The position numbers were made by a program, and so were the translations under genes. 64,000 bases of DNA from Spiroplasma phoeniceum P40 (GTDB lineage Bacteria > Bacillota_I > Bacilli_A > Mycoplasmatales > Mycoplasmataceae): contig NZ_CP031088.1 in assembly GCF_003339775.1 (NCBI RefSeq), forward strand, positions 1 through 64,000. The letters run 5' to 3'. Shown in pieces: positions 9,282 to 60,868 of this stretch. Each line of letters begins with the position of its first letter. Position 1 is the stretch's first letter. The notes beneath the pieces were generated by a model. That model worked only from the letters and a program-made list of their open reading frames with translations. It was not told the origin of the DNA and searched no databases.

Positions 9282-11324
9282 ATGGATTATATTTCTTTAT
9301 ATCGTAAATATCGACCAAATAATTTTGATAAAATTTTTGGACAAATTGAAATTAGAAAAGCTTTAAAAAATGCAATTATAAATAATACATTTTCGCATGC
9401 ATATTTATTTTCAGGACCACGTGGGACAGGGAAAACTTCGATTGCAAAAATATTTGCAAAATCAATTAATTGTATTAATTTAGATAAAGGGAATCCGTGT
9501 AATGAATGTGCTAGTTGTCAGGAAATAAACCGCGCCGGAGCAGTTGATGTATTTGAAATTGATGCTGCTTCAAATAATGGTGTTGATGAAATTCGAGAAA
9601 TTAGAAATAACGTTCAGTTACTTCCTACGATGACAAAATATAAAGTTTATATTATTGATGAAATTCATATGTTAACTAATTCAGCTTTTAATGCATTATT
9701 AAAAACATTAGAAGAGCCACCAAAACATGTTGTTTTTATTTTAGCAACAACTGAAAGTCATAAGATTCCTGCAACAATTATTTCACGTTGTCAACAATAT
9801 AATTTTCGTAAGATCTCAAAAGTTGAATTAGAAAATAATATTATTAATATTTTACAAAAAGAGGAAATTAAATATGATTTGGCTGCGATTAAAGAAATTG
9901 CTCTTTTGGCTGATGGTAGTGCTCGCGATTCATTAAGTATTTTAGAACAAGTAATTATGTTTTCTGATCGAAATGTTACCTTAGAAAATGTAAATATTAT
10001 TTTTGCAACAGTTTCAAAAACCATTAAATTAAAATTATTAAAAGATATTTTAGAATATAAAACAACAGAAGTTTTAATGGCTAGTAAAAAAATTTATCAA
10101 TCAGGTTCTGATTTTGAAATTTTAACATTAAATTTATTAGATATTTTAAAAGAAATTTTTGAGTTTAAACAAACAAATAATTCAATTTTTTTAAATTTAT
10201 TATCAGAAGAACAAGCAAAACAATTTGCTGAACAATTAAGTTCAAAAGAATTAATTATGTTACTTGATTTGTTTACTGAAGCAGCAAGCAAAATGCGAAA
10301 TAGTAAAACACAAGAAATGTATTTTGAATTAATTTTATTAAAAGCTTTAGCAATTTTTGAAAATAATACTAAGAATTTACAGAATTTAAAATTAAGTGAT
10401 TTAGTGATTTTAGAGCATACAGAGGAAAGAGAAATTAATCATGATAAAATAGAACAAATTTCTAAAAATATAGAAATAATAGAAAATAATTATGAAAAAG
10501 ATCAAGTGATACCATTAAAAAACAATGATGAAATAATTCATTTAAAAGAACCGAAATTACCTAATAACCAACCATTATTTCATAATTTTTCATTATTTAA
10601 TGATAAAGAACCTAATGATAGTTCTTTTAGTAACATAGAACAACAACAAGATAAAATAATATTAGATAAAAATGATCTTCAAACTAATTTTGAACAAACA
10701 AAGGAAAAAGAAAGTTTTCAGTCAGTTGGATCAGAGCAAATTTCTTATGGAAAAGAATTAGAAGGAATAACTGACTTACAAAAATATCGTGACGATATGA
10801 AAAATAAAGTTAATATCTATGAATTTTCTAATATTAATTATTCTAATAATCAAATTTTTAATATTTTAATTAAAGCTAGTAAAGAAAAGCGAGAAAAATT
10901 TAAAAATAAATTTATGGAATTAATTAACGAAAAAGGTAAAGTAGTTCAATTAGATAAATTAATTAGTTTCTATGATGTTAAATATGCGGCTGCATCAGAA
11001 CAAGGACTGATTATTGTAACTAATACAAAACCAGAAGCAAATTGAATTAGTTTTGAAATGTGTAATTGAGAATTTCGCAATAAGATTTTCCAAGCATTTA
11101 ATTTTGATTTTATTATTATTGCCTTAAGTGAAACTGAGTGAACTAGTGTTCGCAATGATTATGTTAAAATTAGACAAGCAAATAAATTACCAAAGCCAAC
11201 ATTAATTGATGTTGAAGAGTTTTACCAAAATTTATTAGTTAAACAAATTGATAACTATGAAGAACATAAAGATGTTCTTGAAACTGGTAAACAGATTTTT
11301 GATAACATTAAGATAGTAGAATAA
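9282..11324 (+). CDS. dnaX: DNA polymerase III gamma/tau subunit
   Basis: DnaX is the ATPase core of the clamp loader. The 680-residue product has Walker A GPRGTGKT at residues 45-52, a four-Cys zinc motif just after it (C-x9-C-x2-C-x2-C), DEIH in Walker B, and the SRC motif (IISRCQQ). A low-complexity, charged tau-like region spans about residues 370-540, followed by a C-terminal domain that needs TGA as Trp at 11043 and after. recR, the usual neighbour, follows. Confidence 0.95.
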
Positions 11325-11341: not shown

Positions 11342-11922
11342 ATGAACTATGAAGAATTAATTATGGAATTAAAAACTATTTTATGTGTTGGTAAAAAGAC
11401 TGCGGAAAGGATTTTTAATAAATTAATTATTAAACCATCATTATTGGAATCATTAGAGCATGTTTTTAATAAAATCAAAAATAATTATCATCAATGCTCA
11501 ATTTGTTCAACATTAATGCAAAATAATGTTTGTTTGTTTTGCCATAATAATTTACGTGAACAAACAAAGCTTTGTGTTGTTAGCATTTTTTTGATATTAT
11601 AAAAATTGAAGCAACAAAAGTTTTTAATGGAGTTTATAATGTTTTAAATGGTGAAATTAATGTAAAAAATGGCATTACACCAGATAAATTGAATTTTTCT
11701 GCGTTAGAATCCCGAATGAATGATAAAATTATAAAAGAAGTAATTATTGCTGTTGGTACTACTTTTGAAGGAGAAGTAAAAGCTCAATACTTAAAAACAT
11801 TTTTGCAACCTTTTAATATAAAAATATCACTTAATATAAAAATATCACGTTTAGCCCAAGGGATACCAATTGGTGCTTCCTTAGATTATATTGATGAGGT
11901 AACATTAAAACAATCTTTATAG
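11342..11922 (+). pseudogene. recR: Recombination mediator RecR, frameshifted
   Basis: RecR works with RecO and RecF to load RecA. The first part (to 11602) has the N-terminal helices and the zinc motif CSIC-x9-CLFC. The frame then breaks at a T7 run (11586-11592): one extra T would continue into the -1 frame, which carries the Toprim part (VGTTFEGE) and the ending RLAQGIPIGASLDYIDEVTL. A perfect 18-bp tandem duplication (TTAATATAAAAATATCAC at 11813-11830 and 11831-11848) adds six residues. Two separate lesions argue for a real pseudogene rather than one sequencing error. Confidence 0.8.
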
Positions 11923-11954
11923 GGACGTAAAGATGTTTAAGAACAGGGAGTGTA

Positions 11955-26659: not shown

Positions 26660-27463
26660 ATGGGATTATTACCAGCAAAGAAAAAAATAAAAAAAGAATA
26701 TGATATTGATAGTTATTATCTTAATTTAGCATCAACAATTACTAATCGTAAAAATGTTAATGTTCAAAAACATAATGAGATTTTAGAAAAAAGAATATGT
26801 GAGGATAATGCTAATTTTTTAAATCTGCGTGAATTAGAAATTAGCATTATTAATCCAGTTACTAATCAGCAATTAGATACTAAATTAATTAATAACTTTT
26901 TAAAAATGCAAGATTTTACTAATAAAAATTGATATAACGAATATAAAATTAATAAATATGGTAAGGGTGCATATTTTATTTTTGTTAATAATTCAAAACT
27001 TAATTTTATTACGATTGTTTTTTACAATGACAAGTATGACGAATTGGGCAATTTAGTTTCTTGTACTTTTTATTATGACCCATATATTAAAAATAATCAA
27101 AGTATTTTTATTACTGAAAAATTAGAAATTGATGCTATAACTAAACAAGTAAAAGTTATTAGAACATTAAAAACACGATTATATAGTACTATTACCGATT
27201 TATATATTGATGATACTAAATGGAATAACTATACTTCTTTACAACGCGAGGAAATATTACCACTTAATTTTATTCCGATTGAAATTATCCCTAATAATCC
27301 TAATTTTGAACCTTCTGCTCGTTATGGCAAACAATTTGCTAGTATTTTAGATATAACCATTTCTTTTGGTCATTTATTTCAAGGTAAATATTCACTATTA
27401 CCACTAGGACTACTATTTTTTAAACGATCAATATCTGCTTTTCTTAATAAAATACCTTGATAA
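26660..27463 (+). pseudogene. Portal/connector-like protein, 3' end lost at a rearrangement
   Basis: Begins MGLLPAKKKIKKEYDIDSYY. About 225 residues look like a folded protein with alternating strands (TFYYDPYIKNNQSIF). From about 27340 the sequence becomes the complement of a minus-strand RecT-like gene, so the last residues before the TAA are antisense noise. A portal or connector role is inferred from size and place after the capsid genes. Confidence 0.45.
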
Positions 27464-27921
27464 TTTCCATTTTTATCTTTTGCAAAAGCATAAGCACCAA
27501 TAATTTCATTATAATCACTAGTATTTGCATTAAAATTAATTTCATGTATTTTAGGGCATGAATTTAAACTATCTCATTCAAATTTTTCACCTTTAAATAT
27601 AATTTCTTTTCTTGGACTATACCCTGCTTCTTCCATTCTTTTACAATAAACTTTACTATCAATAACAGTAGTTAATTTATTTTTAAATGGAATAATATTA
27701 AAATCTTTACCAAAAATTAATCCTTTATTACTTAATTTAATAATTCCTAATGCTGTTATTTTTGCATTATCAGCAGTATTAACTAATTGCATATAACTTT
27801 GTCCATTTTTCATTTTTAATTCTTCAAGTGCTAAAATATTTTCTTTTAAATATTTATCATTAACTTTTAATTCATATTTAATAATTGAACTTTTAATATA
27901 TTGTTGTAATTCATTTACCAT
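27322..27921 (-). pseudogene. RecT-family annealing protein, 3'-truncated
   Basis: 199 readable residues: MVNELQQYIKSSIIKYELKV at the start, GKDFNIIPFKNKLTTVID (RecT-like Pro-Phe loop), and SSPSGNSEY..PWNKWPKEMV, matching the late RecT region SP..SPW....MA. The normal end is missing; the frame stops right after the junction with the + strand portal-like gene. It would anneal single strands in phage recombination. A distinct, complete RecT is at 58412-59266. Confidence 0.65.
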
Positions 27922-30002: not shown

Positions 30003-30982
30003 TCTACATAAATAAAAATGGTTTAGATAAAGTTTTATTAAATTATTTAACATATCGCTACAATTATGATAGAAAATTTCAAGGTGCAAAATACGATGAA
30101 AAAGGTAATCCCACAAATAAAGCGGCTGAATTACGCCAACAATTTGAAGGACAAAAGCAGATGATAATTATTATTTTGTTGTGTGGCGTGGTGATGAAAA
30201 TGGTAATTGAAGAATTATTAAATTTCAAAATATTAATTTTTCAGAAAAAAGAAAAAGTTTTAGATACACAACAACCTTATGTATTAGCATTAACAAGAGT
30301 GGGCGATAACTTATTTCGTGTTAAAATAGGAGCTGTAAGACCTATAACATCTTGGTCACAAGATGATGGAAGTTATTTTAAATTTGTTTATCATTGAGAA
30401 ATAAAAGGTCAACCAAATACCATAATCATTGACCCCAAAACAGGGCAAATTATAGATTGAAATTTAAAACAACAAACAAATGTTAATAACAACAAAGACA
30501 ATGAAATTAAAGTAACTGTTAAAAACAAAGATATTTCAGAAAATCCTATTTATCAATTAGAAGCAAATTTTTTTAATTGATTATCAATAACAAGCGAATT
30601 AGAAACAAATAACATTCCTTCTCTAATTCCTGCTGAAATTAAATTATCAGATGGTGAATATGGTAAATATTTAACTAGTTTGATTGTTTCTAATGACAAA
30701 ATAGAAGATTATTTAAACTATTTTTCGCAATGATATATATTACTTTATTCAAAAGCAAATTGAATAAGTATAATTAAAAATTTAGTTGAAGATAGTATTA
30801 AAATAACTTTTTTTAAACACAAAAAACTATTTATTTTAAATAAAGTTGAAATATCAGGGATATGGGGTTATGGTAACTATGATATTATAATTTTTACAGA
30901 AAAAGAACAAATTAATATTAATAATTTAGAATTATTTCATAGAAACAATGAAAAAATATCATTAATTACATTAGAAATATAA
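30003..30982 (+). pseudogene. Prophage A tail protein with shared variable domain, frameshifted
   Basis: Coding on the + strand but broken near 30155 and again by an extra A near 30250. The reconstructed protein has NYYFVVWRGDENGNW.. and ends SWSQDDGSYFKF for the shared domain, followed by about 190 residues (DPKTGQIIDWN through LFHRNNEKISLITLEI). The domain is repeated in inverted orientation in the lipoprotein remnant at 31007-31415. The layout parallels the intact pair in prophage B. Confidence 0.6.
30169..30393 (+). repeat. Inverted repeat A, left copy (shared domain)
   Basis: Matches the reverse complement of 31080-31306. By eye I count about five substitutions and one 1-base indel over roughly 225 bases. 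The indel (A5 here, A4 in the other) breaks this copy's frame. Confidence 0.85.
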
Positions 30983-31008
30983 AAAGTCACTTATTAAACT
31001 GACTTTTT
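30983..31008. terminator. Bidirectional terminator between convergent genes
   Basis: AAAAAGTCA and TGACTTTTT form a 9-bp stem with A and T tracts on either side; it separates the + strand tail gene from the minus-strand lipoprotein remnant. Confidence 0.75.
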
Positions 31009-31415
31009 ATATTTCTTCATTAACTTTTATATTACCATTATAATCAATAATTAAATAAGGTTGTTGTGTATCTAAATTTCAACGATAAACAAATTTAAAA
31101 TAAGTTCCATCATCTTGTGACCAAGATGTTACAGGTCTTACAGCTCCTATTTTAACACGAAAAAAGTTATCGCCCACTCTTGTTAATGCTAATTCATAAG
31201 GTTGTTGTGTATCTAAAACTTTTCTTTTTTCTGAAAAATTAATATTTTGAAATTTAATAATTCTTCAATTACCATTTTCATCACCACGCCACACAACAAA
31301 ATAATACTTATTATCAACTTCATTAAATGGTTTTTCTTGTGGTGCTATTCATACTAAATTGTCTTTAATTTCTTGGTTATCAGTATTTATTTTGTTTTCT
31401 GCTTTTAGTTTTGCT
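31007..31415 (-). pseudogene. Lipoprotein remnant with shared domain (prophage A)
   Basis: The readable part (ELAKLKAENKINTDNQEIKDN onward) aligns with the mature part of the intact lipoprotein at 36524: both have QEKPFN.VDNKYYFVVWRG, a variable segment, and an ending L/I-I-V/I-D-x-N-G-N-x-K-V-N. The signal peptide and lipobox are gone; upstream is the terminase frame, so a deletion probably joined the two. The variable segment differs from that in prophage B. Confidence 0.6.
31080..31306 (-). repeat. Inverted repeat A, right copy (shared domain)
   Basis: Partner of 30169-30393. Within it and just after it, a 20-bp direct repeat (TTAGATACACAACAACCTTA on the coding strand) occurs near 31060-31080 and 31197-31217, encoding LDTQQPY twice. 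Confidence 0.85.
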
Positions 31416-33148
31416 AATTCTTCGAAAGCGATATGGATAATAACCATAAAACAAAGCATCGTATGGATCGTGGTACATTTTACTATCGGGTATATTTGTT
31501 TTTGTATCGCTAAATCTTAATTCACTAATACATTTATCTAAAAATGGTAAATTATCTAATATGCCATATATCTTGTCTTGAACAAACATTTTTCGTATTC
31601 ATGTTACACGATTAATTATTCCCGCTTCTTTATTAAGTGATGTTTGATGTTTTTTAGCTTTAAACATTTTAATCTTATAACCTAAATACGGGTAAATATC
31701 TTCTTGTAATTTTTGCATAAAGTCGTGGGCATTAATGTCATAATGAAATGTGGCATATTCAAAACCATCAAATTTATCAAATTTATTAATTATTCATTGT
31801 CCGTAATGCTCTACTAACTCATTTAAATTCATTGCATTTTTTGGTGTAATAACATTTTCTTCAATTAAATATTTATCATACTCGTTATTTTCATTAATTT
31901 TATATCCACTAAATAAAAATACGGTATGGTCTTCAGTTCCATTAGCATAATCAACACCAATTGAATAACTATCAAATTGATACTGTTTTGTATTTGCATT
32001 ATAAAAATCCTTTTAAATTATATTCTTTAATATATTTACGATAATTTCGTAAAACATAAATACTATGGTCATTGTCGTTATATTCAAATCCGTAATATTC
32101 AAGTTCAAATAAGTCTGGTCTTTCTTCTTTGTTGGTTAAAACAAGTTTTTTAGTGATATTAGGTATTTTACTTCAAACAGCACCCATTGTTAATCGTATA
32201 TTAAAAACACCTAAACCATTAAATGCTTGTTTATTTTCTGATTATATTTGGTTATGTTTCTTTAAAATATTTTTAATTCTTTCATTTAAAGGTAAATACG
32301 GTGTTATAAATTTTTCATAAAATACATGGTATTTATCAAAAGGATTAAAAGTAAATTGATTAGAATATGTTTTATGAAAATATGTTGTTATTGTTGTGTA
32401 TTGTTTTGTTATATTATCTCATTCTTTAAATGTCCAGGATAATTCTTTTATAGGAATAGGATTGTCTAAATTATATTGTTCATTTTTATTTTCATCGGTG
32501 TATTTCTCGTAAGACACTTTTAAACTTTTAGAACGAAACATTGAAACTCTTAAATTATTATATCTTTTATCTAATTCTTTATCAGTTAAGATTTCTTTTT
32601 CTTCGGCATGTATAATTTCATCAGTTCACGCTGTTATAATCCCGCTACCTTTACCAACTTTACCCATAATTTTATTACCATTAGCATAACCAGCAAAAGC
32701 AATACGAACACCACTAGGAAAAACAATTTCTCCACCTTCTTTAACATTTTTGGGTCAAATAATACCATTTTCATTGTCTGGTCCTAAATCAATACCATAT
32801 TTATCATATAAGTAATTACATACATTAATTGTATCTCCAAAAGTAGTGTCCTCATGTGTATTAGTATATCTTCGTAAAATATTAGATGAAGCATCAGTAA
32901 AATTACAAGCATAAAATAATTTTTCTGCTATATGATTTCATGTTTTATTAGTACCACGACCAGCAGAAACAAACTTAAAAAAACTTGGTGAAGTAAAATA
33001 ACGGGCATAACTATCGCCAACAAAGTCTTTAAATACTTCTCAGTCAAAACCAAAATTATAGTCACTAAAATTTAAATCATATTTTTTTATTTAAATGTTC
33101 ATAACTAGTAATTCGTTTTTTATTATTAATTTTAGTAAAGTCTTGCAT
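31380..33148 (-). pseudogene. Terminase large subunit of prophage A, broken
   Basis: ATPase part: FVSAGRGTNKTWNHIAEK (Walker A-like) and ITAWTDEIIHAEE (Walker B with Glu). Nuclease part: SIGVDYANGTEDHTVFLF, then DPYDALFYG near the end. A TAA lies after KKHNQI (near 32250), another TAA near 32010, and a frameshift follows at 31990-32030; a further shift occurs close to the start. It packages DNA and cuts concatemers when intact. It is unlike the TerL of prophage B, so A and B are different phages. Confidence 0.75.
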
Positions 33149-36333: not shown

Positions 36334-36523
36334 ATATATAATTAACTTCCTTTCTTAAAATTAAAATTGTTTTATAATACTAATATATTATCAAAATAAA
36401 TATTATTTTTGAATATTTATATTTTAATATTTTAATTATATTTTCGATAAATAATCATTAAATTTGCATAATTCATTATATAATTTTTATATAAATAAAA
36501 TATCAAGAAAGGACTGGGTTATT
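36334..36523. promoter_or_regulatory. Divergent spacer upstream of the lipoprotein gene
   Basis: Very AT-rich; holds the RBS AAAGGA (about 36507) for the lipoprotein. Several TATAAT-like stretches are possible, none clearly positioned. Confidence 0.4.
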
Positions 36524-37036
36524 ATGAAAAAATGATTAAGTTTTTTAGGAGCAATTACATTACTAGGAACAAGCACAACAAGTCTAGTTGCTTGTAATAA
36601 TATACCACAATATAACGAAGATGAATTACAACAACTAAAAAAAGAAAACCAAATATACACAAATTGCAAAGAAATAAAAGAAAACTTAGAATGAATTTGC
36701 TCACAAGAAAAACCATTTAATACAGTGGATAATAAATATTATTTTGTAGTGTGGCGTGGTGAAAAAAATGAAGAATGAAAAATTGTTAAATTTTTAAATA
36801 ATAGTAATTTATTAAAAATTGATAATTTTAATAATCGCCAGTTAGAAAAAACGGATTTAGCATATGGAAAGGATTTATATATTAGTAATAATTCTGGTTT
36901 TATTAAATATGTATCAAATTGACAAAGAGATGATGGAGCTTATTTTAAAGCAGTTTATCGTTGAAATGGTGATGAGCAAAAATTACCTGATTTAATTGTT
37001 GATAATAATGGCAATGTAAAAGTTAATAGTGAATAA
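36524..37036 (+). CDS. Prophage-encoded lipoprotein sharing a domain with the phage tail protein
   Basis: 170 residues. A signal peptide with lipobox (MKKWLSFLGAITLLGTSTTS-LVAC) predicts a lipid-anchored surface protein. Residues 74-149 (from VVWRGEKNEEWKIV to RRDDGAYFKAVYRWNG region) are identical, base for base over 227 bp, to residues about 413-487 of the tail protein encoded on the other strand (37566-39185). It is the only + strand gene of prophage B with its own RBS and terminator, as for lysogenic-conversion genes. A self-exclusion or receptor-masking role is inferred. Confidence 0.75.
36745..36971 (+). repeat. Inverted repeat B, left copy (in lipoprotein gene)
   Basis: 227 bp identical by direct comparison to the reverse complement of 37724-37950. 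Identity stops sharply at both ends, although the encoded flanks stay similar on the N-terminal side. Confidence 0.93.
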
Positions 37037-37565: not shown

Positions 37566-39185
37566 TTATCAAATTAATGGTTCTCAACTTCCAAACGATA
37601 GCAAACCAATAGCGGCTGTTGTCACAATACCACGCTGTGCTTTATCTCATGTTTTAAAATCTTTTCATACTCAAAATTTAATCATCCCACCATCATATTT
37701 TAATATCGGTGATCATTCTTCTCCACCATTTCAACGATAAACTGCTTTAAAATAAGCTCCATCATCTCTTTGTCAATTTGATACATATTTAATAAAACCA
37801 GAATTATTACTAATATATAAATCCTTTCCATATGCTAAATCCGTTTTTTCTAACTGGCGATTATTAAAATTATCAATTTTTAATAAATTACTATTATTTA
37901 AAAATTTAACAATTTTTCATTCTTCATTTTTTTCACCACGCCACACTACATAATATCATTTATTATCAGTTGTTTTAAATGGTTGTTCGTCTGGTGTCAT
38001 TTCTTTTAATCTGCTTTTGACATATTTGACGCTGCTTTCTATTTTGTAGGGCATTTCTCTAATTCTTTTGTCTAGTTGTGCTGTTTTTTGATCCATTTTT
38101 TCCATTTCTTTGGTTCATTTTTTATTGAATTCTTCTTTTTTTTCTTGGGCATATTCACAAAAATTAATAAAATTGCTAGGGTCTTTGATTGATTGATAAC
38201 GAATGGGAACTCGTGCGGTATATTCTCAATTAAAGGATTTTATTTTTTCGCCTTTTAGGGGTAAATTAAAACTAAGGATAGGGAATTCATAAATTCCGTC
38301 TTTATGTCTTGTGTTTAAGTTATCTTGGGTTAATCTTCCTTTGTCTGTTCATACAAAATATTCGCTAGCACATTTATTTTGATAAATTGCTTGGTATTTA
38401 AAATCATTTACTTGATTAATGTTATCGATTATGGCTGTTGCTATTGTTTTTGAATTATCGTTTCAAGTCATGGCACTTTTAATATTTTTTCATGGTTTGT
38501 TTTCTTCTTCGTTGGTTTTTTCAAAATAGAATTTATTGTCAATTTCGCTTGGTTCAACTTCGTCAATTTTAGTGTTAATGGGACATTGTTCTAATAATTC
38601 TGTTAATTTTTCAATTTGTTCGCTTTTGTTTTCTCCTAAACTTTCAATAAATTTTTTATTAATATATTGGTAGTTTTCATCTGGGTTGTCTATATCGGGG
38701 ATTGGATATACTAATGGTGCTTTTGACATATCTATTTTAATTGTTAAAAATATTGTTGTTGTTGTTTCTGCTTGGTTTTTTGCATACGGTATTAAGTCGT
38801 TGATATCGTTTGTGGTGTTGTTTTCTACTTTAATCATTCTTCCGCAAATGCTTAAATAAAAAAATGGTATTTCTTTGTTTCCTTTTTTTGTTTTTATTTT
38901 TGCTTGAATTCCGTTGTCTTCATATTTGAATTCTGCTTCTAAGTTTTCTTGTTCGCCAAATCCGTAAAATAAAAAACCAGTTGAATTGTTATCACATAGT
39001 TTTAACATTTCTTCGTTATAATTATCGCTATTACCCAATAAGTTTATAGCGTTTTTATTGCTTAATTCTTTATTAGCATAGTAGGGGATTGTTTGGTTTC
39101 TTAATAAAAAATCGTAATATATTGCTTGGTCGCGGTCTGTTAAATAATCTTCTGTATTGTCAAATGTTATAAATCTAAATGCCAT
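37566..39185 (-). CDS. Tail-tip/baseplate protein carrying the shared variable domain
   Basis: 539 residues with many TGA Trp codons. The N-terminal part (to about residue 110) has GRMIKVENNT, related to GRIIEIEEDT in the upstream gene, suggesting a common virion-attachment fold. A coiled coil (about 370-400) precedes the shared domain (residues about 413-487), and a hydrophobic stretch (GIVTTAAIGLLSFG) lies near the end. This build fits a tail fibre or receptor-binding protein. It faces the lipoprotein gene that carries an identical domain. Confidence 0.65.
37724..37950 (-). repeat. Inverted repeat B, right copy (in tail protein gene)
   Basis: Identical partner of 36745-36971, in the same reading frame relative to its gene. 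The two copies enclose about 750 bases holding both gene ends and two small genes. Confidence 0.93.
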
Positions 39186-41939: not shown

Positions 41940-42677
41940 TTAAAACTTACTTCATAATCTTACTTGGCCGAATATTAGAGTAATTGTGTTTTTATTGCTT
42001 TCTAAAATTATCCCAGATAAAATGCTGTTATATTCTTTATTGTTAAATAATAGGGTAAATTTATCTCTTAATTGTAAATTGTTTAAATTTAAAATATTGT
42101 TATCTTTTGTGATATCAAATTTTATGAGGTGTGAGTATTCACTTAACTTAAATTCTTGATTGCTAATAGTTATAATATTTTCTAAGGTAAAGTCTTTTTC
42201 TTCTAATTCATAAATTTTATTTTTTATTAAATTATTTTGTAAATTATTATTATTATTATTTTCATCATAAGAGATTGTATTATTTTTTAATAAGTTTGCT
42301 CTTGTGTAACTGCTTGAGTTGTTTTTTTGGTAAAAATCAATTCTGTTGATACTTTTTTGGTTTAATTCTTCAATTTCTATATTTGTAATACATTTAATAT
42401 TATCTTTTACTTTATAATTATTTAATTTGATATCTTCTTGTCCATCTTTGCAAATGTCACAATTTAAAAAAAAATTTTTTAAATCAATATTAAATTTTAA
42501 AAATATATTTGTTATTTTAAATATTTTGTTAATAAATTGATAACAATTAAATTCTTTTTCTTCATTTTCTTCAAAAAATTTAGGATTATTATTATTTTCA
42601 TCATTAATTTTTTTATTAAGTTTAATAAAGGGAAGATTTTTATAAATAATTTTTATTAAAGTAAAAAAATATATCAA
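41940..42677 (-). CDS. Tail protein, hypothetical
   Basis: 245 residues, Asn-rich, last gene of the late tail block before the tRNA. A run of Asn (about residue 150) is followed by a beta-rich end (LNNLQLRDKFTLLFNNKEYN, then IILESNKNTITLIFG). Its ATG overlaps the upstream stop (ATGA). Its position after Dit and the next gene suggests the tail-tip (Tal) area. Confidence 0.5.
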
Positions 42678-43396
42678 CTTTTATTTTTATATATGTTGTA
42701 AATTTTAAAATCAAAAATAGATTCAATATTTTTAGTAGTAAAGGTATATAAATTTTCATCTTTGTTTTTTTCAATATGAGTAATAATTCCAATATATAAT
42801 TGATTTTCGTTATTCAAAATACAAACAATGTCTTCAATTTCAACATTAAGATTATAATAATTATAAGCATTAAAAGTTGATAGTTGCGGGGTATAAATAT
42901 CTAAAAATATCTTATAATTTTCAACAATACAATTATCTTTATAAAATAAAGATCCTTTTTCAAAATCAACTCCAAATATAATTAATTTAGTTCTATTATC
43001 TTGATAAATATTTTTATCTTTTTTAATTTCTAATTTTAATAATTCATCTCTTGCTTTTTGTCTTGCTTTTTCTTCTGCTTCTTGTTGTGCTTTATTAATT
43101 TCAAGCACAATATTAGATAATTCATCAAGATAATCAATCATTAATTTATAATCAGGAATTTGTAATAATCATTCGGCATGTTGAGGATTTAATTTTACAA
43201 CTTCATCAAAATTAATTTTTTCGTCATTAATTTCTTTTGTTAATTCTGATATTTCTTCTTTTAATTCTTGGATTTGTTTTACAATTTCTGCATTTAAAGT
43301 ATTGTTTTTTAATTTATTAATAATTTCTTTTTTATCTTCTCTAATTGCAATTATTTCGTCACTTCAGTGTCTTTTTGTTGAACTTCCTACACCCAT
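42674..43396 (-). CDS. Tail protein downstream of Dit
   Basis: 240 residues in one frame with TGA Trp codons. A coiled coil (residues about 20-75, KEEISELTKEINDEK; and again 95-125, QQEAEEKARQKARDE) leads to a beta-rich C-terminal part (VEIEDIVCILNNENQLYIGIITHIEK). Its position after Dit matches tail-associated (Tal-like) proteins. Confidence 0.5.
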
Positions 43397-43412
43397 TTAA
43401 TTTCTCCTTTTT

Positions 43413-44339
43413 CTAAATTAAAATATATTCTTCAAATTTTTTAATATTAATATTTCCAACTTGTTTGTCTTTTGAAAGGTTAGAAGAATATAAAATATGA
43501 TAGTTTCCTGGTGGAATTTGAATAAAATTAGTGTATTTAAAATCTTGATATTGATATATGTTGTATGATTTTTCGTTTTTTAAATCAACTTTTATAATGC
43601 TTTGAGTTTTTATTCTACTATCTATTATTATTTTTTCATTTTCATTTATTTCAGCATTAATTTTAAGCTCACTTATTAATTTACCATTAATATTTTCTAA
43701 TTTTAAATATGGGTCTTTTGTGGGACCATTGATTGTTATTAGAGTATCTGATGCTAAATAACTATTATTACTAATTTTAATTTTTTCATTATATTGATTG
43801 GTATATTTAATGCGATTTAACTTAAAATAATATTTGTTATTATGTTCATTGTATCTTTTTCCGCTTGTTTTATTTGGTTTAATTTCAAATAATTTATCTT
43901 CTTCTTTTTTTCAGTTAGTTAATTGTTCTAAAATAAAATCAACCTCTAAATCATTATTATTATTCAATTCTGTTTTAATAATACTTTTAATAATTACCTC
44001 ACAATAATATTCCAATTTTGTTTTTTCATTTATTCAAAAACTATAAAATAATAAAAAGGGGGAAGATTTATTATCTAAATTAATATTTAATTTATTAATA
44101 AAATCATTAAATTTACCATAGGGATTTGGGCCTATAAATAATAATTTAAAATTTATTTGATTTAAAGAATGCTTACTATTATTTAAAATAAAATTATTAT
44201 CGATGTTTAAATAATTATTATCAAAATTAATATTTAATCCATTAAATGATAAAATAATGATATTATCTAAATCACATAAATTAATTAAATTATCTTTACT
44301 ATTACTAATTTTAAAAGTTCTAAATGGTAAATTATACAT
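43413..44339 (-). CDS. Distal tail protein (Dit-like)
   Basis: 308 residues. It follows the tape measure gene, the invariable place of Dit in siphoviruses. N-terminal segment MYNLPFRTFKISNSKDNL and ISFNG-like strands, and a C-terminal galectin-like beta region (TLITINGPTKDPYLKLENINGKL; IPPGNYHILYSS) fit the family, where PPG.H.I is common. It forms the hub linking tail tube and baseplate. Confidence 0.7.
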
Positions 44340-44348
44340 ATTTTCTCC

Positions 44349-45896
44349 CTATACTCTATTATTTCATTGCCCTATATATTCGAGTATTTTTTCAGCTCGT
44401 TCTTTATCATTTTCTCCTTCAATAATAATTGTTGGTTTAAATTCATTTTTATTTTCAATTTTATTATAGTTATTAGTTTGGCTTTCTTGGTTAATGTTTT
44501 GTGGTGGTTTATTAAATTTATTATATAATCATACCCCACCAGCAGCTAAGGCAGACAAACTAACTAAAACACCATAAAGAATTGGGTGCTTTGCCATTCC
44601 TAATAAAAGTGTTTTTAATGAACTAATAACATTTATTATTTTTCCAATTGTGTAAACAACAGCCCCCAAACTTGCTGATATTCCCAAAATAATAAAAATA
44701 GTTTTTTTGGTTGTATCATTAAACATATTAAAAAAATTTGTTATTCCTTTAATAATTGGTATTAAACTGACTTCTAAAAAAGAAACCAAAGACTCAAACA
44801 CGGGTAATAGGGCGGATGCTAAATTCATTTTTGTAATATTAATAACATGTTTAAATTCATTTCATTTTTTATTTAATATTGTTGTTTTGTCAACATTTTC
44901 ATTTGAAACAATACCTAAATCTTTAATGTTGTTTGTCATTTTTTTAATTTCTTGATCTGATAAGGCAAGCATTGGAATAAGGTTTTTTCCTAACTTAGAA
45001 CCAAAAATATCCATTATTAAATTATTTTTTTCAGTTTCATCACTTATTTGTTCTAATGATTTTTTTAATTCTAAAAAAATAGTTCCTGTATCTTTTAAAG
45101 ATCCCTCATTATTTTTAATGTTAATTCCTAATTTATTAAAAGCTTCTGTTGTTTCATTTGATATTCCATAAGAAATAGCACTAATACCTTGTCGTAATTT
45201 TTTAAAACTCTTTTCTAATTCTTCGCTAGTAATTCCAGTTCTTTTTGCAATATAACGAAATATTTGTAAGTTTTCTGCTGTTATACCAATTTCTTTTGAT
45301 GTTTTTTTAAGCTCACCAGCATATTTGGCGGTATCAACAGTTATTTTTGTTAAAATTCCTTTGATTGCTAAAATGGGTATTGTAATATGTGTGCTTAATT
45401 TTTTTCCGATTTCTTGACACTTTGTTCCAAATTCTTCAAATTTTTTAAAGGGAATATTTTTTATTTCTTGGGCAGTATTTTTTAATTTCTCATTAAAGTT
45501 GTTTAGACTGCGATTAGATGCATCAATATTTATTTTTGTATATTCATATTCTTTATTTAATTTATTTTGTTTTTGTATTAATTTTTCTTTTTCGGCAGTA
45601 TCGTTTGTTTTTGATAATGCTTCTTGTGTTTCTAAAATGGCTTTATTTAATTGATTATATTTTTCAATTAAAAGTTCTTTTTTTTCTGAAATATTATCAA
45701 TGATATTTTTATATTCATTAAATTTTTCATTTAAAATATCAATTTCATCACCGTTTTTAAATTTTAAATTATTATCAAAATTTTTTAATTTAGATCCTGA
45801 TAGTTTTATGTTATCGGCTATTTTTTTAAAATTGTTATTTAATTCTAAAACATTACTATCAAGAGTTATGCTCATTCCTTTAATTTCTTTTGCCAT
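44349..45896 (-). CDS. Tail tape measure protein
   Basis: 515 residues with TGA Trp codons. A long coiled coil fills residues about 15-160. The middle (AGELKKTSKEIGITAENLQIF and FNKLGINIKNNEGSLKDTGTIF) is the classic TP901-type tape measure domain. Hydrophobic helices lie near residues 375-400 and 410-450. Short for a tape measure, so the tail is probably short (on the order of 75 nm at 0.15 nm per residue; inference). Confidence 0.85.
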
Positions 45897-45910
45897 AATT
45901 AACTATTCCT

Positions 45911-46416
45911 TTAAAAAAATTTATTAATATCTTGTTGTGTTGCTAATCTTTTATTTTGATTGTTATAAATTTCTATAATTTCTATTAATGTTTTTAATTT
46001 AATATATTTGCTGTCTATAATTGAAAACCCTAAATGACTAAGTCATAGTAATAAGTTAGGAGTAAATTTATTAAATTTATAATCTACTTTTTTGTTAATT
46101 CGCCGTATTCCTGTAAATTTTTGTCATTAACACTAGCACCTACAAATTCCATTATTAAGTTATTAATTTCATTAACATTTTCGGTAATTTCTTTAAATGT
46201 AATTTTTTGACAAAATTCCTTAAAATCTTTAAATTGATTTTCATCAGCTGCTTTCGCAAAAGAAAATAATAATTTTAAAATAAATGAAAATTCATATTTG
46301 TCTTTTTCTAATTTATTTAACAATTCTCCGTATGAACCAAATAAATCCTCATAAATAATTAATGCATAAGTGCTTATATTAACTTTTAATTTTAAACTTT
46401 CTAAATATCTATTCAT
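45911..46416 (-). CDS. Tail assembly chaperone gpG/gpGT with -1 frameshift site
   Basis: The zero frame gives gpG: 110 residues from 46416 (MNRYLESLKLKVNIS) to TAG at 46084-46086. Just before the stop is the canonical slippery heptamer A AAA AAG (46093-46087). A -1 shift there leads into an open frame of 58 codons (VDYKFNKFTPNLLLW through TQQDINKFF) ending at 45911. The same layout of G and GT between tail tube and tape measure genes is conserved in long-tailed phages. The shift itself is inferred. Confidence 0.8.
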
Positions 46417-46996
46417 TTTCGTTTTTTTCTTCTTTTTCTAATTTTGGAACTTGGGAAAAGTAGTTATTATAATTATTTTCATTAGCTTTTTTTGTTGTTT
46501 TAATTTTAATAACATTATCTTCAATTCGTGGTAAGGCGTTTAATTCAAAAGTATAAGTATCTGGGTTTACATTTTCGGTTTGAGTGTTATGAGTTTGGTT
46601 GGGGCGTTTTAAATTAACTCTTAAAAGTCAAATTCTTTTTTCTTCTAAATCACCTTTGATTTCAAACCCCAAAGCAATCTCACTCTTTAAACTAGTTGAT
46701 TTTTCAATATAATTTCCATTTTTATCTTTTTCAATTCCTAAAATTTCTTGTTCAAAATCATCAGATGGTTTTGCTATTGTTAAACTACCACTATAACCTT
46801 GAAAAGAATGTGAAATATAGTATGGTTTATTATCAGCATAAAAGGTATTAGTGTTTTCGCTAACATTTAAACTTAAATTTACTGCTCCTAATATTTTTTG
46901 TGGGATTGCATATTCTGTTTTGTTTGTTGTTTGATTGTATTTTAATTTTGCATAATGAACATTTTCTAGTCCAAATTCAATAATGTTGTTATTCAT
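46409..46996 (-). CDS. Major tail tube protein (phi13 type)
   Basis: 195 residues. FGLENVHYAKL at the start and GFEIKGDLEEKR-W-LLRVNLKRP..THNTQTENVNPDTYTFEL match the phi13-type major tail protein family. The ATGA overlap with gpG shows coupling. These subunits stack as hexamer rings around the tape measure. Confidence 0.8.
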
Positions 46997-47011
46997 TTGT
47001 ATTTTCTCCTT

Positions 47012-47389
47012 TTATCTTTTTAGCAACAAAAATATTTCATAAATTACGATATATAAATTTTGTTCGTATAAATAAAACTCTTGTGCTAATTGATAATTTA
47101 TTTTTTTATTTATTAATTCATTTTCTAGTTTTTCAATTTCATTAAAATTAATTTCATTTTTAAAATTAAAGCAAATTTGGAATGTTTGTCTTATAAAATT
47201 ATTAATATTATCTGATGAAAAAAAGGTATTATCATTAATTCTATAAAAAGTTATATTATTTTCAATGTTATTGAAATTATCTTCATTAAAATTAAAAAAT
47301 GTATATTTAATCTTTTTAGTTGGATAAAGTTTTTTTAATAATTCAATAATTAAATTAATATTTTGCTCTCTTTTATTATTAATAATCAT
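47012..47389 (-). CDS. Probable tail completion protein
   Basis: 125 residues, helical at both ends with a central strand region. Located between an HK97 gp10-like gene and the tail tube gene, the usual place for a tail completion or terminator protein. No motif is clear. Confidence 0.5.
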   Translation of the reverse strand: MIINNKREQNINLIIELLKKLYPTKKIKYTFFNFNEDNFNNIENNITFYRINDNTFFSSDNINNFIRQTFQICFNFKNEINFNEIEKLENELINKKINYQLAQEFYLYEQNLYIVIYEIFLLLKR

Positions 47390-47394
47390 CTTAA

Positions 47395-47793
47395 CTAATA
47401 TTTTAAAATAGTTTCTATTTTTTTAATATATTCATCAATATACTTATTATAAGCATTTCGTAAAAATGGGCGAGGATTAATTTTTTCATTATTTCAATGA
47501 TTAATATATCCATATTCTAATAAGTGGATTATTTGATATTGTTTAGTGGCATAAATTACACCAATTATTTTATCTTTGGTTAATTTTATTTTAAAAACAA
47601 AATAATCTTTTAAATGTCTTCTTTTTGTTAAATGTTTATTGCTAATAGGGCAAGTAATTTTAATTTCTGCCAATATTTTTTCACCTACATTTTTAATTTC
47701 TGCTTTTATTTGTTCTTGGATATCATAAGTATATTGTTGGATTGAGTCTGCAACAAAATCAAATATATCAACTACTGAATTACTTTTTTTCAT
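47395..47793 (-). CDS. HK97 gp10-like head-tail protein
   Basis: 132 residues. The sequence CPISNKHLTKRRHLKDYFVFK, then LLEYGYINHW and PRPFLRNAYNKYID, matches the gp10 pattern (APV.TG.L..S; E.G...PA.PFLRPA). I take ATG at 47793 with AAGGTG upstream over the in-frame TTG at 47802. Confidence 0.75.
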
Positions 47794-47803
47794 TTTTAAC
47801 ACC

Positions 47804-48130
47804 TTATCTTAAACTTAAAAATAGTTCTAAAAATCCATCTTGTCTGTCATAAGTTCTAATAATTTCATATTCTTGTCAATTATTTTGATATTTATAATCA
47901 ATTAAAATAAATTTTTCATTATCATACATATATTTATCTATAAGTAATTTTATTTCTAATTTTATGCCCGCCATTCTAGCGGTGTAAAAATCATTAGCAT
48001 AAATTGATTTAATATCACAAAATACTTGTTTTTTATTTTTAGTTATTTTTTTATGACTTAATGGATTTTCGTCATCTTCTTTATCAATTAGAAAAGCATA
48101 ATCATTTAATAAAATTAAATTATCTTTCAA
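47804..48130 (-). CDS. Head-tail joining (head closure) protein
   Basis: 108 residues with a TGA Trp codon. QVFCDIKSIYANDFYTARMAGIKLE and EYEIIRTYDRQDGFLEL resemble phage head-tail adaptors (compare EFY.A...G.K and Y.I.....D). It overlaps the connector gene before it by 11 bases. Confidence 0.65.
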
Positions 48131-48488
48131 TTTTATTTTTTTCTAGTTTTTTAATATCTTTTAATTTCTTTTTTAATTCTGTGAGTTCTTTTTCTAATTG
48201 ATATATCGTTGTTTGTGGATAATTAGCATATTTATACATTAATTGTTGAATATTATAGTTAAGAATAGTATAAAATTTTTCTCCAATTAATTCACGCCCT
48301 AAATTTTCCTTAACATAAATAGAAATAATATTTTTTAATTGTTCATCATTTGCTTCTTCAATAATTTGAAAAGGAAGACCTGAATTTATTAAAATATTTT
48401 TAGCTGATTGAATTAAAGTTTTTATTTCTTCATCAAATAAATTATGCTGAATTCGTAAACTTAATTTAACAAAATTTAATAAGTCCAT
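48120..48488 (-). CDS. Head-tail connector (gp6-like)
   Basis: 122 residues, mostly helical. MDLLNFVKLSLRIQHNLFDEEIKTLIQSAKNIL has the typical gp6-type start (L..VK..LRI....D.EI..LI..A). Located directly after the capsid gene. The C-terminus is a lysine-rich coiled coil. Confidence 0.75.
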   Translation of the reverse strand: MDLLNFVKLSLRIQHNLFDEEIKTLIQSAKNILINSGLPFQIIEEANDEQLKNIISIYVKENLGRELIGEKFYTILNYNIQQLMYKYANYPQTTIYQLEKELTELKKKLKDIKKLEKNKIER

Positions 48489-48511
48489 ATTGATCCTCCT
48501 TTATTTTTAAA

Positions 48512-50287
48512 TTACTCAGGTTGGAAATTTACAAAAGCATTTTTTTCAACAACTTTCCCGTCTAAAATGGCTGCTCCCACATAAGTATGTAAAAGTTTTT
48601 TAATTCCGATATGTTCAGAATATCTTAGAGTTAAAGGTTCTTGGAAATTTACATAATAAGTATTTAATTTTCCAAAAGAAATACAATTATTTTTATTTGT
48701 TTTAGAAAATGTAGGATATGTGTCTGTTAAAACAACTTCATAACCTAAGATTTTATTAGTGACTCCATCTGAACTTATATTGTGGTTTCAAATAGGGCGA
48801 TCATTTTTATCTTTAATATTTTGAATAGTTCAGAATGTTTCGTTATTCATTACAAATTTAGCACCATTTGAATATCCTAATTTTAATGATTTAATCATTT
48901 CAATAATAGCATCGTAATTTAATTCTTTAATTTTTACACTTTTAATGCTTGTATCTGATAATATTCCAGTTGGTTGACCTTTTCCAGTTCCAGTGGCGAT
49001 TGATTGTTCAATACCCTCTTTAATTCTGTTTGTAATTACTCTAATTACAAAAGCTTCAAAATCTTCAATCGTCATAAATCTTGTAGTTTCTGAAAATTCA
49101 AGCGAAGTGGCAATAATGTGACCATCAAATTTAATACTATCTAAGTTTGATTCTCCTTTTACTTCTTGCCCCTCTGTGACAAATTTAGCTGCTGTTGAAT
49201 CTTTTTCATACGCAATATCTAATTTTCCTCGGTGCTCTAAAATAGTTATTTCATTAATTAAATTAGAAGTTAATTTAATTTCATTTAAGATGTTTTTTCA
49301 TATTGTAGTAGGTACAAGCGGACTCGCATCTTCATTTCCAGTTGGATTTGTTCCAACTTGTAAGAATTTTGTTTCTTGTGGCGTTAATTGTTGTCTTTGC
49401 ATTTTTTTTAATCATGCATTTTTATATTCTCTTGTATCTAAAATATCTTTTTGATTATAGATAGTTTTAATTTCCATTTGTTCTGTTCCCCTTAATGTTT
49501 GTAAAATTGTGCTATTTCCGTTTTCAATATTTTTAATATTTTTTTCTAAATATTCATTTCTTATTTTTTGAGTTTCTGTAATTTCTTCATTTAATTTTTT
49601 AATTGCAGTTAATAACTCTTTTTGTTCTTGTAATTCTTTATTAGATAAATTATTTTTCTTTAATTCCATATTTTCTAATTGTTCTTTTTTTTCTTCTAAT
49701 TCATTGTTGGAATCAATAATTTTGTCATTTAATTCTTTTAAATTCACTTTTTCCATGTTTTTTTCTCCTTTGATATTTTTAATTTCTTGTATTTTACTCT
49801 GTGGATTTGCTCCTAATGGAACCAAAGAAATTTCGTCAACTTCAATTTGTTTTAAATAACGAACAACTTGGCCGTTTATTTCTGTTGGTTCTGATTTTAA
49901 AATACGATATCCTATACTTAACTGCATTGGTCTATTATCTTTTTGCATTTGTTTAGCAATTTCGTAAGTTTCTTTTCCATAATTAGTATTAGTATATATT
50001 TTAATTTTTGCCCATAATCCGTCTTTTCGGTTTTCTAAATCTGCAACACCCAAAATTTTTTCGTGATTATGAGATAAAAACACTGGCACAGTTTTACCAT
50101 TTTTTAAATCATTTTCAAAACTTTTGTAGTCAGTAATGTCATTGTGATAATCAACTACATCATATTTATTTGCTATTCCGATAATTTCGTTTGTACTAAA
50201 TTTATCTTCTTTTATTTCTTTTATTTTTTTTATATTAAAATCAATTTTTTTAGTAATTTCATTATTAATAATTTTATTGTTGTCCAT
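48512..50287 (-). CDS. Prohead protease fused in frame to HK97-type major capsid protein
   Basis: One frame of 591 residues with no sense-stop other than TGA. Residues 1 to about 170 are a prohead protease: VPVFLSHNHE with the catalytic His, MQLSIGYRI with the nucleophile Ser, and EVDEISLVPLGANP. Then a coiled-coil delta domain (about 178-265) leads into the capsid (NPTGNEDASPLVP, ITILEHRG, GTGKGQPTGIL). A strong internal RBS (AAGGAGA, 49764-49770) precedes an in-frame ATG at 49756, which would give the capsid alone. Confidence 0.85.
49754..49770 (-). promoter_or_regulatory. Internal RBS and start for capsid protein
   Basis: AAAGGAGA ends 7 bases before ATG 49756, in frame with the protease. 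A weaker second candidate (AAGGGGA before an ATG encoding MEIKTIYNQ) lies near 49478. Confidence 0.6.
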
Positions 50288-51479
50288 TGTTTTCTCCATT
50301 TTTTTCATCATCTACTTTTCCATAATTTCAATTTAAAAAGGTATCTCCTCCCTCATAAGGATCTAAACCAAATAATAATTTTCTTATTTCATTTGGGTTT
50401 ATTGCACCAAGTTCAACACCTTTTAAACTATTTGATAAGTTTAATATTATTAATCTACTATCTAATACAAACTCAAAATATTGCCCTAATTCTAATTCTT
50501 TTTTAGTAAAAATTTTAAAGGTAAATTCTTTTTCTAATTGTCTTAAAACTGGATGAATTACAGTAGATAAATAACTTAAAAATTGTTCTGAATTATAAGT
50601 CCCTTTAACAATCTCGGGTGCTATATTAAAAAATTTATAAATTAAATTTTCAGAATATTCATTTTGTTCTTTACTAAACTTTGATATATTACTATCAATT
50701 TTTTTAAAATCTTGTCCATAAGATAAATACGCAACTCTTTTATTACTAAAATTGGTATTTTTAAAATTAATATCTTCAACTGGTAAAACTGGCAACATTT
50801 GGGATCTCTCTTGGTTAAACTGCGTAGGAGCACCAGTTGGCCCCAGTGGCATATTTGTGGTAATTATCCCCATTAAAGAATTTGTTTCTTTAAAATTGTT
50901 AATAATAGAGTTTGTCATTTCTTCTAATATTCTTTTACTTGGTTCAAGCGAATTATTAGGATTATCCCCTAAGAAATTTTTATTATAAAATTTCCGTAGA
51001 TGAATTATTTGAGAATACGGTAATATCTCAAATGCATTATTATTTTGATAAAATCTTATAAATAATTCATTATCCTTAGACAATAATTCAATAGTGCTGT
51101 ATTCGATTGGAATTAAAGAAATGATTTTATCATTAATATCTTTTTCTATTTTAATAAAAACATTCCCTTGCAAAAATAAATTAGTAATTATCTTATAATA
51201 AAAATCATAACTACTCATTAAATTGTTTGGTCTCAAATTTAATAAATAATCAAAATTAGATTTTTTTATTTTTTCATTTTGGCGATATGTATTAACTGAT
51301 ACTTGTGCTATATCAGTAGCAATCCGATTAATTGTGCTTTTAATTACATCAATTTGATAATTATTCTGAAAATTAGTAAAAAAGTCTTTTCATTCAAACT
51401 TAACAATATCAACTTGAGAATTTTTAGGCGTTTTATTTACATCATTATTATTTTCTTTATTTTTTTTATATCAAAACAT
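50274..51479 (-). CDS. Portal protein (HK97 type)
   Basis: 401 residues. IDVIKSTINRIATDIAQVSVNTY at the start, LFLQGNVFIKIEKD, then PYSQIIHLRKFYN and the segment IAPEIVKGTYNSEQFLSYLSTVIHPVL are typical of HK97-type portals. It forms the dodecameric DNA gate. RBS-like AAGGCTGGTG lies in the leader 3-12 bases upstream, and it overlaps the protease by 14 bases. Confidence 0.9.
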
Positions 51480-51482
51480 AAT

Positions 51483-51596
51483 CACCAGCCTTAACAATAA
51501 TAATTAACCCCATCATTTATTGTCGTCGTGATGATACCGTCATTAAAATTATTTGTCAAATAAAAAAAGACAATTTATATTGTCTTTAAAATATAA
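51483..51596. repeat. 115-bp intergenic repeat, copy 2 (promoter and leader)
   Basis: Nearly identical to 39846-39962; the one clear difference is in the promoter spacer (AAAATTATTTG versus AAAAATATTTG). Confidence 0.85.
51528..51562 (-). promoter_or_regulatory. Phage promoter, copy 4
   Basis: Minus strand TTGACA (51554-51559), 17-bp spacer, TATCAT (51531-51536). Drives portal, capsid and tail genes. A terminator hairpin (AAAGACAAT) lies upstream at about 51567-51589. Confidence 0.8.
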
Positions 51597-51734
51597 CAAT
51601 GATAAAATCAACTAGTGTAAAATTAAATAATTTTAACAAAAAAATATTTTTTAATTAAATTTATAATATATAGGGATAATAATAAATTAAAAAAGAAAAT
51701 ACATTAATAAAAATTTTTAAAAAAATTTAAATAT

Positions 51735-52478
51735 ATGAATAATTATTATATTTTTATAGATGATAGTGGCAATATTAATTTAACTAGTAAGGAAAGTTAT
51801 TTTGTATATGGTGCATTAATTTTTAATGATTTTAATAAAGTTGTTGAATTTGAAACAAAATGAAAAAATAATTTACAAAGTAAATTTGGTAAAATAACCG
51901 AAAAAAAAGCTAGTGAAAAAATAAATCGAGGAGCTAGAAATTCATTTTATGATATAATAATTAATTTTTCTTACTCAAAAGCATATATAGTTGCCAATAA
52001 AAAAAATTATTATAAATTAAAAGAAATTGAATATAATTATAATTATATGCTAGAAAATATTCAAGATTCAAATAAGGATAAAATTAAAAGACTAATAAAA
52101 AAAGAAAGAAAAAAAATGTATGAAATATAAAAAACTTATTTAATATCAAGTTTAGTTTCTGAAATAATTAAAAAACTAAAAATAAAAAATAAATCAAATG
52201 TAAAAATTATTATAGATATTGATAATTTTAATTTTACTTTTAATGAATGAAATAATTATTTTAACAATATGCATCCTTATTTAAAATTTAAAAAAATTAA
52301 TTATGAATTACAAATAGTTGATTCTAAAAAAAATTTCATTTTACAAGGATCGGATTTTTGAGCAAATGCTGTTTGAAGAAATTTTGAAAGAAATAATAAT
52401 GATTTTTTTTCTTATTTTTTAATTGAAAATGATGATGAAAATATTTTTGAAGTTAAACACCCTTGAAATGAATGATAA
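51735..52478 (+). pseudogene. DUF3800-like protein with an internal stop
   Basis: Begins MNNYYIFIDDSGNINLTSKE, matching the DUF3800 start (..I..DESG). A TAA at 52128-52130 splits the frame, which stays open to 52478 (KIIIDIDNFNF; LQGSDFWANAVWRNFE, typical of DUF3800's C-terminal D..A). DUF3800 proteins are RNase H-like and often occur in prophages and defence islands. It could still be two polypeptides, but the second half has no RBS. Confidence 0.6.
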
Positions 52479-52494
52479 ATAGTATATAATATAA

Positions 52495-52556
52495 TTATAG
52501 GTGGGTCGTATGGACTTGTCCGCTATCGGTAAGAGCATTGTTTGTTTCCCCACCTA
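52495..52556 (+). ncRNA. Candidate small RNA closed by GGTGGG/CCCACC
   Basis: TATAAT (about 52485-52495) precedes an about 57-nt element that begins GGTGGG and ends CCCACC, with an inner hairpin, and is followed directly by a terminator. It is G+C-rich for this genome. No family recognised. Confidence 0.45.
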
Positions 52557-52582
52557 AAAAAGAGATTTAATAATCTCTTTTT
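52556..52582. terminator. Bidirectional terminator for TerL and the small RNA
   Basis: AGAGATT and AATCTCT with flanking A and T runs. Confidence 0.75.
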
Positions 52583-54285
52583 TATTTTTGAGAATATATT
52601 TTATATAATTCAATATAAATTCGGTCTTTATTATCGCGAAAGATTTTATAAGCAAATAGAAGGGCAATAAAACCGTCAATTCGTTTGTTTTTTGATCTTT
52701 TAATTGGCATCATATTTTCTTTTTCTTCATCAATAAGAACATCAACATTATTAAAGTGTAATTTTAATAAAGGGTTTTGATTAAAAACAAATTTATTGTC
52801 ATCAAATTCTAATTTAAGGGCTTTTATAATTGGGCTAATTGTTCTTACTCCAAATCTAATTAAATTATTTATAAGATAAAATCCTGCATTATCTAAATGT
52901 TGTTTTAAAAGATATGAGTTAAAAGTATCATATCCTATACCATAACAAATTAAATTATATTTTTTCATTATATTTATAATATAATTAACAATTTCACTAA
53001 TATTGATTTCTTCTCCTTTGCATAATGTTAATATTCCTTGTTCTTGGTAAAGTTTATATGGAATTTTATCTTCTGTTGTTTTTTCAATTATTCTTGCTTC
53101 TGGCATAAAAAATTGTGATAATAATATAAATTCATTTGTGTCTAAATTTGGGATTAAAAATACGACTGCACTTAGATCGTTTGTTTTTGATAAATCAATT
53201 CCAATAGTACAAATTCTATTTTTTATTAAGTATTCATCGGTATTAATAATTTTATTATTTTTAGTTTCTAAATCTAATCGACTAAAAAGGGCACTATCTA
53301 AATTGCTCTTTAAATTACAATGTTTAATTAAAAAATTTGGTTGTTGAGTTGGTGTAATTAATGCTTCTTGTCATTCGGCTTTAAAATTATCAATATATTT
53401 AGAAATACCCAAATTTGGATTAGCTTTATAAAGATTGTTAAAATTTTTTCATTCATTTCTTTCATCAAGTTCATAAATTCAAGGTAAAAATTTATTATCT
53501 TTTATTGTGTTTTCTAAAACTTTCTCAGCATAAGAATATCTTTCATCGAAAATATTTTCTCTAATAGATCCATTGGTTGTTATTAATAACATTAAATAAT
53601 CTTTTCTTTTTGCGGTTGCTGTTCGCATAACATCATAAATGTCACGCTTTTCCATCATTGCTACTTCATCTAAAACAACAAAATAGGGGTTTAAACCATC
53701 TAATGTTTTTGTTTCTGATGATAGTGGTTGAAAAAAAGAATTATTATGTATAAACTCTATTTTATCTCGCTTAACTTTTAAAATTTTATTTAAGTTAGGA
53801 TTAATAAAAATCATTCGCCGCATTTCTTCATAAACTCTTTTTGCTTGATCTCGTTTGGTTGCAATAGAATAAAGTTCGGCATTTGCTTCATTATCTAAAA
53901 TTAAACTTTTTAAAGCGATTGCAGAAGCAAGGGCGGTTTTTCCATTTCCTCTTCCGACAATTAAGAGTGCTTCTTTAAATCTTCTTAAATTTGTTTTTTT
54001 ATCATAAAAACCATATAATGCTTCTAAAAATGCTTTTTGCCATAATTCTAATTTAAAATTTTGTTTATTATATTCTCCAGTTGTATGAAAACAAGATTTT
54101 TCAATAAAGCTAATTGTTTTATTTGCTTCTTTGTGATTAAAATAATAATCTTTATTTGATTTTAATTCTTTTACTAATGTGGAAACAATTTTTTTAATTT
54201 TTATTCCAACTTTATTTTTATTGGAGTTTTTATTTATTCATTCATAATATATTTCTAAATTTGTTTTTTCATTATTTGCTTGCAT
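52582..54285 (-). CDS. Terminase large subunit
   Basis: 567 residues with many TGA Trp codons. Walker A is LIVGRGNGKTALAS near residue 105, Walker B is FVVLDEVAMME, and TTNGS is the coupling motif. The nuclease domain has TIGIDLSKTNDLSAVVFL (first Asp) and KNKRIDGFIALLFAY near the end (D.. with A). It packages phage DNA with TerS. AGAGGA precedes ATG 54285, two bases after the TerS stop. Confidence 0.93.
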
Positions 54286-54287
54286 TC

Positions 54288-56551: not shown

Positions 56552-56629
56552 ATATATTTACCTCATTTCATATTTAATATTATCATCTTTAATTTTAATA
56601 TATTTAAAATTAAATTATTTTATTATTTT

Positions 56630-56911: not shown

Positions 56912-56928
56912 TTGTATTTTCTCCTTTG

Positions 56929-58041: not shown

Positions 58042-58053
58042 AATAACCTCTTT

Positions 58054-58407: not shown

Positions 58408-58411
58408 TTTA

Positions 58412-59266: not shown

Positions 59267-59267
59267 T

Positions 59268-59616: not shown

Positions 59617-59618
59617 AT

Positions 59619-60053: not shown

Positions 60054-60067
60054 ACTAATATTCCTTT

Positions 60068-60863: not shown

Positions 60864-60868
60864 TATCT

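Follow-up and report, generated by a model that had tools for sequence, protein, structure and literature searches.

Decay of recR along with other genes of the RecA pathway in Spiroplasma phoeniceum P40

Spiroplasma phoeniceum is an insect-borne plant bacterium, and in strain P40 recR, the gene for the protein that loads RecA, has very probably become a pseudogene, and recently so. Selection on it presumably ended with the loss of recA, after which it was broken three times. We observed three lesions within the gene and broken copies of other recombination genes in the same genome; sister genomes carry lesions of their own, and protein change is faster on the P40 branch. An order of events with recA first fits these observations, short of proof. 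Under such an order, the loss of recA would have left RecR, as a loader of RecA, without a job and released recR from selection, and slippage together with AT-biased point mutation would then have removed one base, duplicated 18 bp in tandem and created a nonsense codon, so that functional RecR would presumably no longer be made. The lesions were read from one P40 assembly of one isolate (genome G000 in our set of 14 genomes of the genus; 1,908,276 bases in 4 contigs), and all coordinates refer to the window, that is, the whole 64-kb stretch of DNA that was analysed. The published S. phoeniceum P40 genome comprises one chromosome and three plasmids (PMC11320922).

Reading frames and lesions at the recR locus

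The recR locus lies between dnaX and tmk, the same position that it occupies in relatives, and is composed of the following elements.

9282–11324, + strand: dnaX, intact upstream neighbour
11342–11940, + strand: recR pseudogene, between dnaX and tmk
11342–11602, + strand: 5′ open frame of recR, 86 aa, matching TIGR00615
11585–11592, + strand: site of the one-base loss, an A followed by T7, with the frame lost at codon 82 (from comparison with relatives)
11593–11919, + strand: 3′ part of recR, out of frame with the 5′ part and covering Toprim and the C-terminus (Pfam Toprim_4 E 4.5e-13, RecR_C E 1e-8)
11813–11848, + strand: two exact 18-bp tandem copies (11813–11830 and 11831–11848), a single copy in relatives
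11920–11922, + strand: TAG that ends the frame early, at codon 188 of 193; this codon is open in intact relatives
11923–11940, + strand: rest of the conserved C-terminal codons, ending where relatives have their stop codon
11955–12602, + strand: tmk, intact downstream neighbour

The first recR frame starts at 11342 and runs for 86 codons to a stop codon at 11600–11602, while the remaining RecR is open in another frame until 11922. Both pieces match TIGR00615, over positions 6–86 and 86–196 of its 196 (E 4.4e-13 and 5.7e-31), and each misses the cut-off of 162.55 (49 and 107.3 bits), which is accordingly not reached as one protein. The 5′ frame, which by itself has no Pfam match, holds the N-terminal helix-hairpin-helix region and the C4 zinc-finger cysteines, and Toprim_4 and RecR_C fall into the other frame, the latter with 20 of the 24 model positions matched; the cysteines, the Toprim domain and the RecR C-terminus are thus not encoded in one frame. 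With both halves matching TIGR00615 and the neighbouring dnaX, tmk and holB all open (code 4), the split is not a chance pattern.

Codon mapping against G012, the nearest intact relative, placed the loss of one base at codon 82 and the insertion of 18 bases at codon 158, and showed codon 188 of 193 to be a TAG. A first-pass annotation of the window had described recR as hit by two changes, and both the one-base loss and the in-frame 18-bp tandem duplication hold up, whereas the premature TAG had been overlooked. Its placing of the lost base in a T run is borne out only in so far as the loss adjoins a T7 run: the intact G012 also has seven T at this site (the run is longer in G007), so that the missing base cannot be assigned to the run from the alignment and may have been either part of it or located just 5′ of it. 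The 17-base core of the duplication occurs at only two places in the window, both of them here, against 0.04 expected; the duplication preserves the frame and is the least severe of the three changes. Position 11922 had been read as the end of recR, but intact relatives read through this TAG and stop six codons further on, at the equivalent of 11938–11940. By this comparison, the TAG at 11920–11922 is a separate nonsense change and not the natural end of recR. The gene therefore carries more than one disabling change that close relatives whose recR is open do not share.

As the one-base loss adjoins a homopolymer, the classic place for sequencing or assembly errors, and only a single P40 assembly was read, one could argue that the loss is an artefact and that recR is really intact. 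We consider this extremely improbable, given the in-frame nonsense codon and the clean 18-bp tandem duplication elsewhere in recR, and given that P40 also has lesions in recA, recU, ruvB and recO, with open frames for dnaX, tmk and holB; an error at the one-base site would touch neither the nonsense codon nor the damaged genes elsewhere. For the same reason, recR would not be rescued if new reads lengthened the T run, an outcome that had been named as refuting the inactivation, because the nonsense codon would remain. Hardly more credence is due to programmed or incidental −1 frameshifting that yields some full RecR at the run. Although the run lies in a phase at which a ribosome could move back one base (T TTT TTG), the slippery-site arrangement is not conserved, recR being uninterrupted in 8 of the 14 genomes and broken by other lesions in the other damaged copies, and the 125 nt downstream of the run, folded without pseudoknots, show nothing unusual (z −0.82). 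Moreover, even a shifted RecR would end without the final five residues of its relatives and without the one replaced by the stop, and would include the duplication. Recoding at the T run, which we rejected after this downstream folding and comparison with relatives, is unlikely.

Recombination genes in P40 and across the genus

Decay of the route that involves recR and recA had been suggested in the first-pass annotation, and the damage in P40 extends beyond that guess. The recA gene is a nearly full-length copy with a one-base loss and three TAA codons, and not a 130-residue stub like the one described for S. citri. In addition, codon 174 of ruvB is a TAA, recU carries two deletions and a one-base insertion, 10 bases are inserted close to the end of recO, and ruvA is matched only over positions 70–201 of 202, so that recA, recU, ruvB, ruvA and recO, the partner genes of recR, are all damaged in the genome that carries the broken recR. 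Of the genes that the first-pass annotation advised checking in the same genome, recA and recO are damaged, and no RecF is above the cut-off. RecF matches up to the cut-off were found in none of the 14 genomes; matches exist in 14 of 14, all far below it, and most of the best of these lie in frames of ~990 residues resembling another ATPase, which we take to be perhaps UvrA-like or SMC-like.

A recR match is present in 14 of 14 genomes and above the cut-off in eight, and the gene is broken or reduced in six (G000, G002, G004, G006, G007 and G011), mostly by different lesions. Five of these six copies could be mapped codon by codon, every one with frame-breaking changes or stops, and the G011 match is confined to the last 31 positions and lies away from dnaX. 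Paired small indels between distant relatives (e.g., G001 versus G003) were treated as alignment noise and excluded from the lesion counts. A single frame-breaking change is common to G004 and G007, and none of the changes in these two genomes is found in G000. Simple parsimony counts 4 changes of state for recR; the lesions themselves suggest that it was broken at least five times, unless there was an earlier change that is no longer seen.

On a tree built from dnaX, tmk and holB, P40 is sister to G004, followed by G007 and then G012 (support 95/94, 100/100 and 100/99). P40 therefore groups with S. kunkelii (G004) and not with S. phoeniceum PmM2021_Spiro (G007), which makes the S. phoeniceum label of the latter doubtful. 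The grouping of G000 with G004 conflicts with a one-base loss in a T run at recR codon 41, which is common to the G004 and G007 loci (L013 and L014) and absent from G000; either slippage hit this run on two occasions, or the tree is in error at the short branch. Codon 4 of recR, in turn, has become TAA in both L012 (G002) and L014 (G007), which belong to non-sister lineages, probably through a repeated AT-directed change.

Eight of the 14 genomes have a broken recA or none at all: G000, G002, G005, G006 and G008 carry a lesion or truncation, and no recA match was found in G004, G007 and G011. In G006 the recA frame is open, but the C-terminus is gone, as is the Walker A motif. The match in G002 ends near residue 130, and from this length, which corresponds to that given for S. 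citri in the part of the report available to us (PMC3563533), G002 is probably S. citri. All six genomes with a broken recR have a broken or absent recA, versus two of the eight with an open recR (Fisher p 0.0097, not corrected for descent). When corrected for descent, the association comes down to 4 independent pairs, of which on average 2.8 point the same way and 0 the opposite way (p 0.25), and with so few pairs this test cannot reach significance.

Selection on recR and the proposed role of phage RecT

Private codon changes on the P40 branch number 6 in 188 codons of recR, all of them non-synonymous, versus 6 in the 894 codons that dnaX, tmk and holB have together (p 0.009), and the branch of the intact G012 has no comparable recR excess (p 1.0). 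The dN/dS ratio of recR ranges from 0.04 to 0.13 in five intact pairs versus 0.54 in the G000–G012 pair, and non-synonymous to synonymous changes stand at 13:6 in this pair versus about 57:138 pooled over the five intact pairs (p 0.0013). Set against the control genes of the same G000–G012 pair, the ratio shows no clear difference (13:6 versus 47:33, p 0.60). Relaxed selection on recR is thus apparent from the private codon changes, while the comparison with same-pair control genes shows none.

A different account would have recR dropped after phage RecT annealing had taken over, in line with the link to a neighbouring phage drawn in the first-pass annotation. The gene in question is the following.

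58412–59266, − strand: prophage RecT, outside the recR feature and 46 kb from it (Pfam RecT E 1.8e-46)

The P40 genome has 18 RecT matches, and the prophage combines RecT with an SSB and a protein that weakly matches PD-(D/E)XK nucleases. Across the genus, where 8 of the 14 genomes have RecT matches, the association does not follow: RecT occurs in five of the six genomes with a broken recR versus three of the eight with an open one (Fisher p 0.14), and independent pairs mostly do not differ in RecT (3.2 of 4). Moreover, G006 has lost both recA and recR and has no RecT match, and G012 has 8 RecT matches, yet its recA and recR are open. Replacement by RecT is unsupported by the 14-genome counts, the Fisher test and the independent pairs alike, and we regard it as very improbable. 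The loss of recR belongs to decay of the whole pathway and not to a phage take-over.

Several other features of the window and of the RecT survey deserve mention. RecT at 58412–59266 lies within a tailed-phage-like block (41940–61546, − strand) with a large terminase, a C5 DNA methylase, RecT, SSB and a PD-(D/E)XK-like protein. A second, shorter and different RecT (27322–27921, − strand; Pfam E 3.5e-11) overlaps a frame at 26660–27463 (+ strand) and is perhaps part of a broken second prophage. In G008 (S. poulsonii MSRO_BK), 14 of the 16 RecT matches have an identical score, which points to many near-identical prophage copies. Four further regions (30161–30982, +; 31007–31459, −; 36464–37036, +; 37566–39185, −) share stretches of the form YFVVWRGE or DDG.YFK.VYRW, and one of them starts in a lipoprotein-like manner; these frames perhaps represent a repeated family of surface proteins.

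Known cases and a possible order of gene loss

The loss of recR in P40 is a fresh case of a decay of the RecA pathway that is already in print for Spiroplasma; judged on titles and abstract openings, we found no paper on recR in S. phoeniceum in the literature. The closest case in the passages available is S. atrichopogonis, in which recO, recR, recU and ruvB are pseudogenised or absent (PMC4607517). It belongs to the same genus and resembles P40 in recR and in the set of lost recombination genes, but is another species with its own lesions, and in P40 recA is broken as well. Excerpts on the Citri clade describe its genomes as RecA-deficient (PMC12453411), with a 130-residue recA stub in S. 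citri and a recA truncation also in S. melliferum (PMC3563533). One pathway is lost in one clade here, yet these passages concern recA and not recR, and recA of P40 is disrupted by a frameshift and three stops instead of the 130-residue cut. For S. mirum, the text at hand names recA and recD as the only complete recombination genes (PMC9666726), so that recR is not complete there, as in P40, and neither are recO, ruvA/B and recU, whereas recA, unlike that of P40, is counted as complete. Outside the genus, the neutralised ruvA of Wolbachia (PMC4224334), as far as the portion consulted describes it, resembles recR of P40 in the stepwise decay of recombination genes in an endosymbiont under relaxed selection, although it concerns one redundant gene and not a whole pathway. 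In cultured S. poulsonii, according to the part of the study available, recR transcripts are enriched and recA is pseudogenised (PMC5874924), suggesting that some use for recR may persist once recA has been lost.

Taken together, these results amend the earlier picture: recR is dead by more than a one-base change, its loss is part of whole-pathway decay, and the genome is that of S. phoeniceum P40 and not of S. citri, the species named in the first-pass annotation. In the comparison of 14 genomes, recR loss is nested inside recA loss, a pattern that can be tested on many more public Spiroplasma genomes. It is a tentative idea, and on our assessment a rather doubtful one, that the RecA pathway collapses repeatedly in a set order, with recA going first and recR and the Holliday-junction genes following, through fresh lesions each time. 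The one aspect that merits following is the sequence in which the recombination genes are lost, and if the idea is true, Spiroplasma would offer a natural series showing how a pathway falls apart after its central enzyme has been lost.
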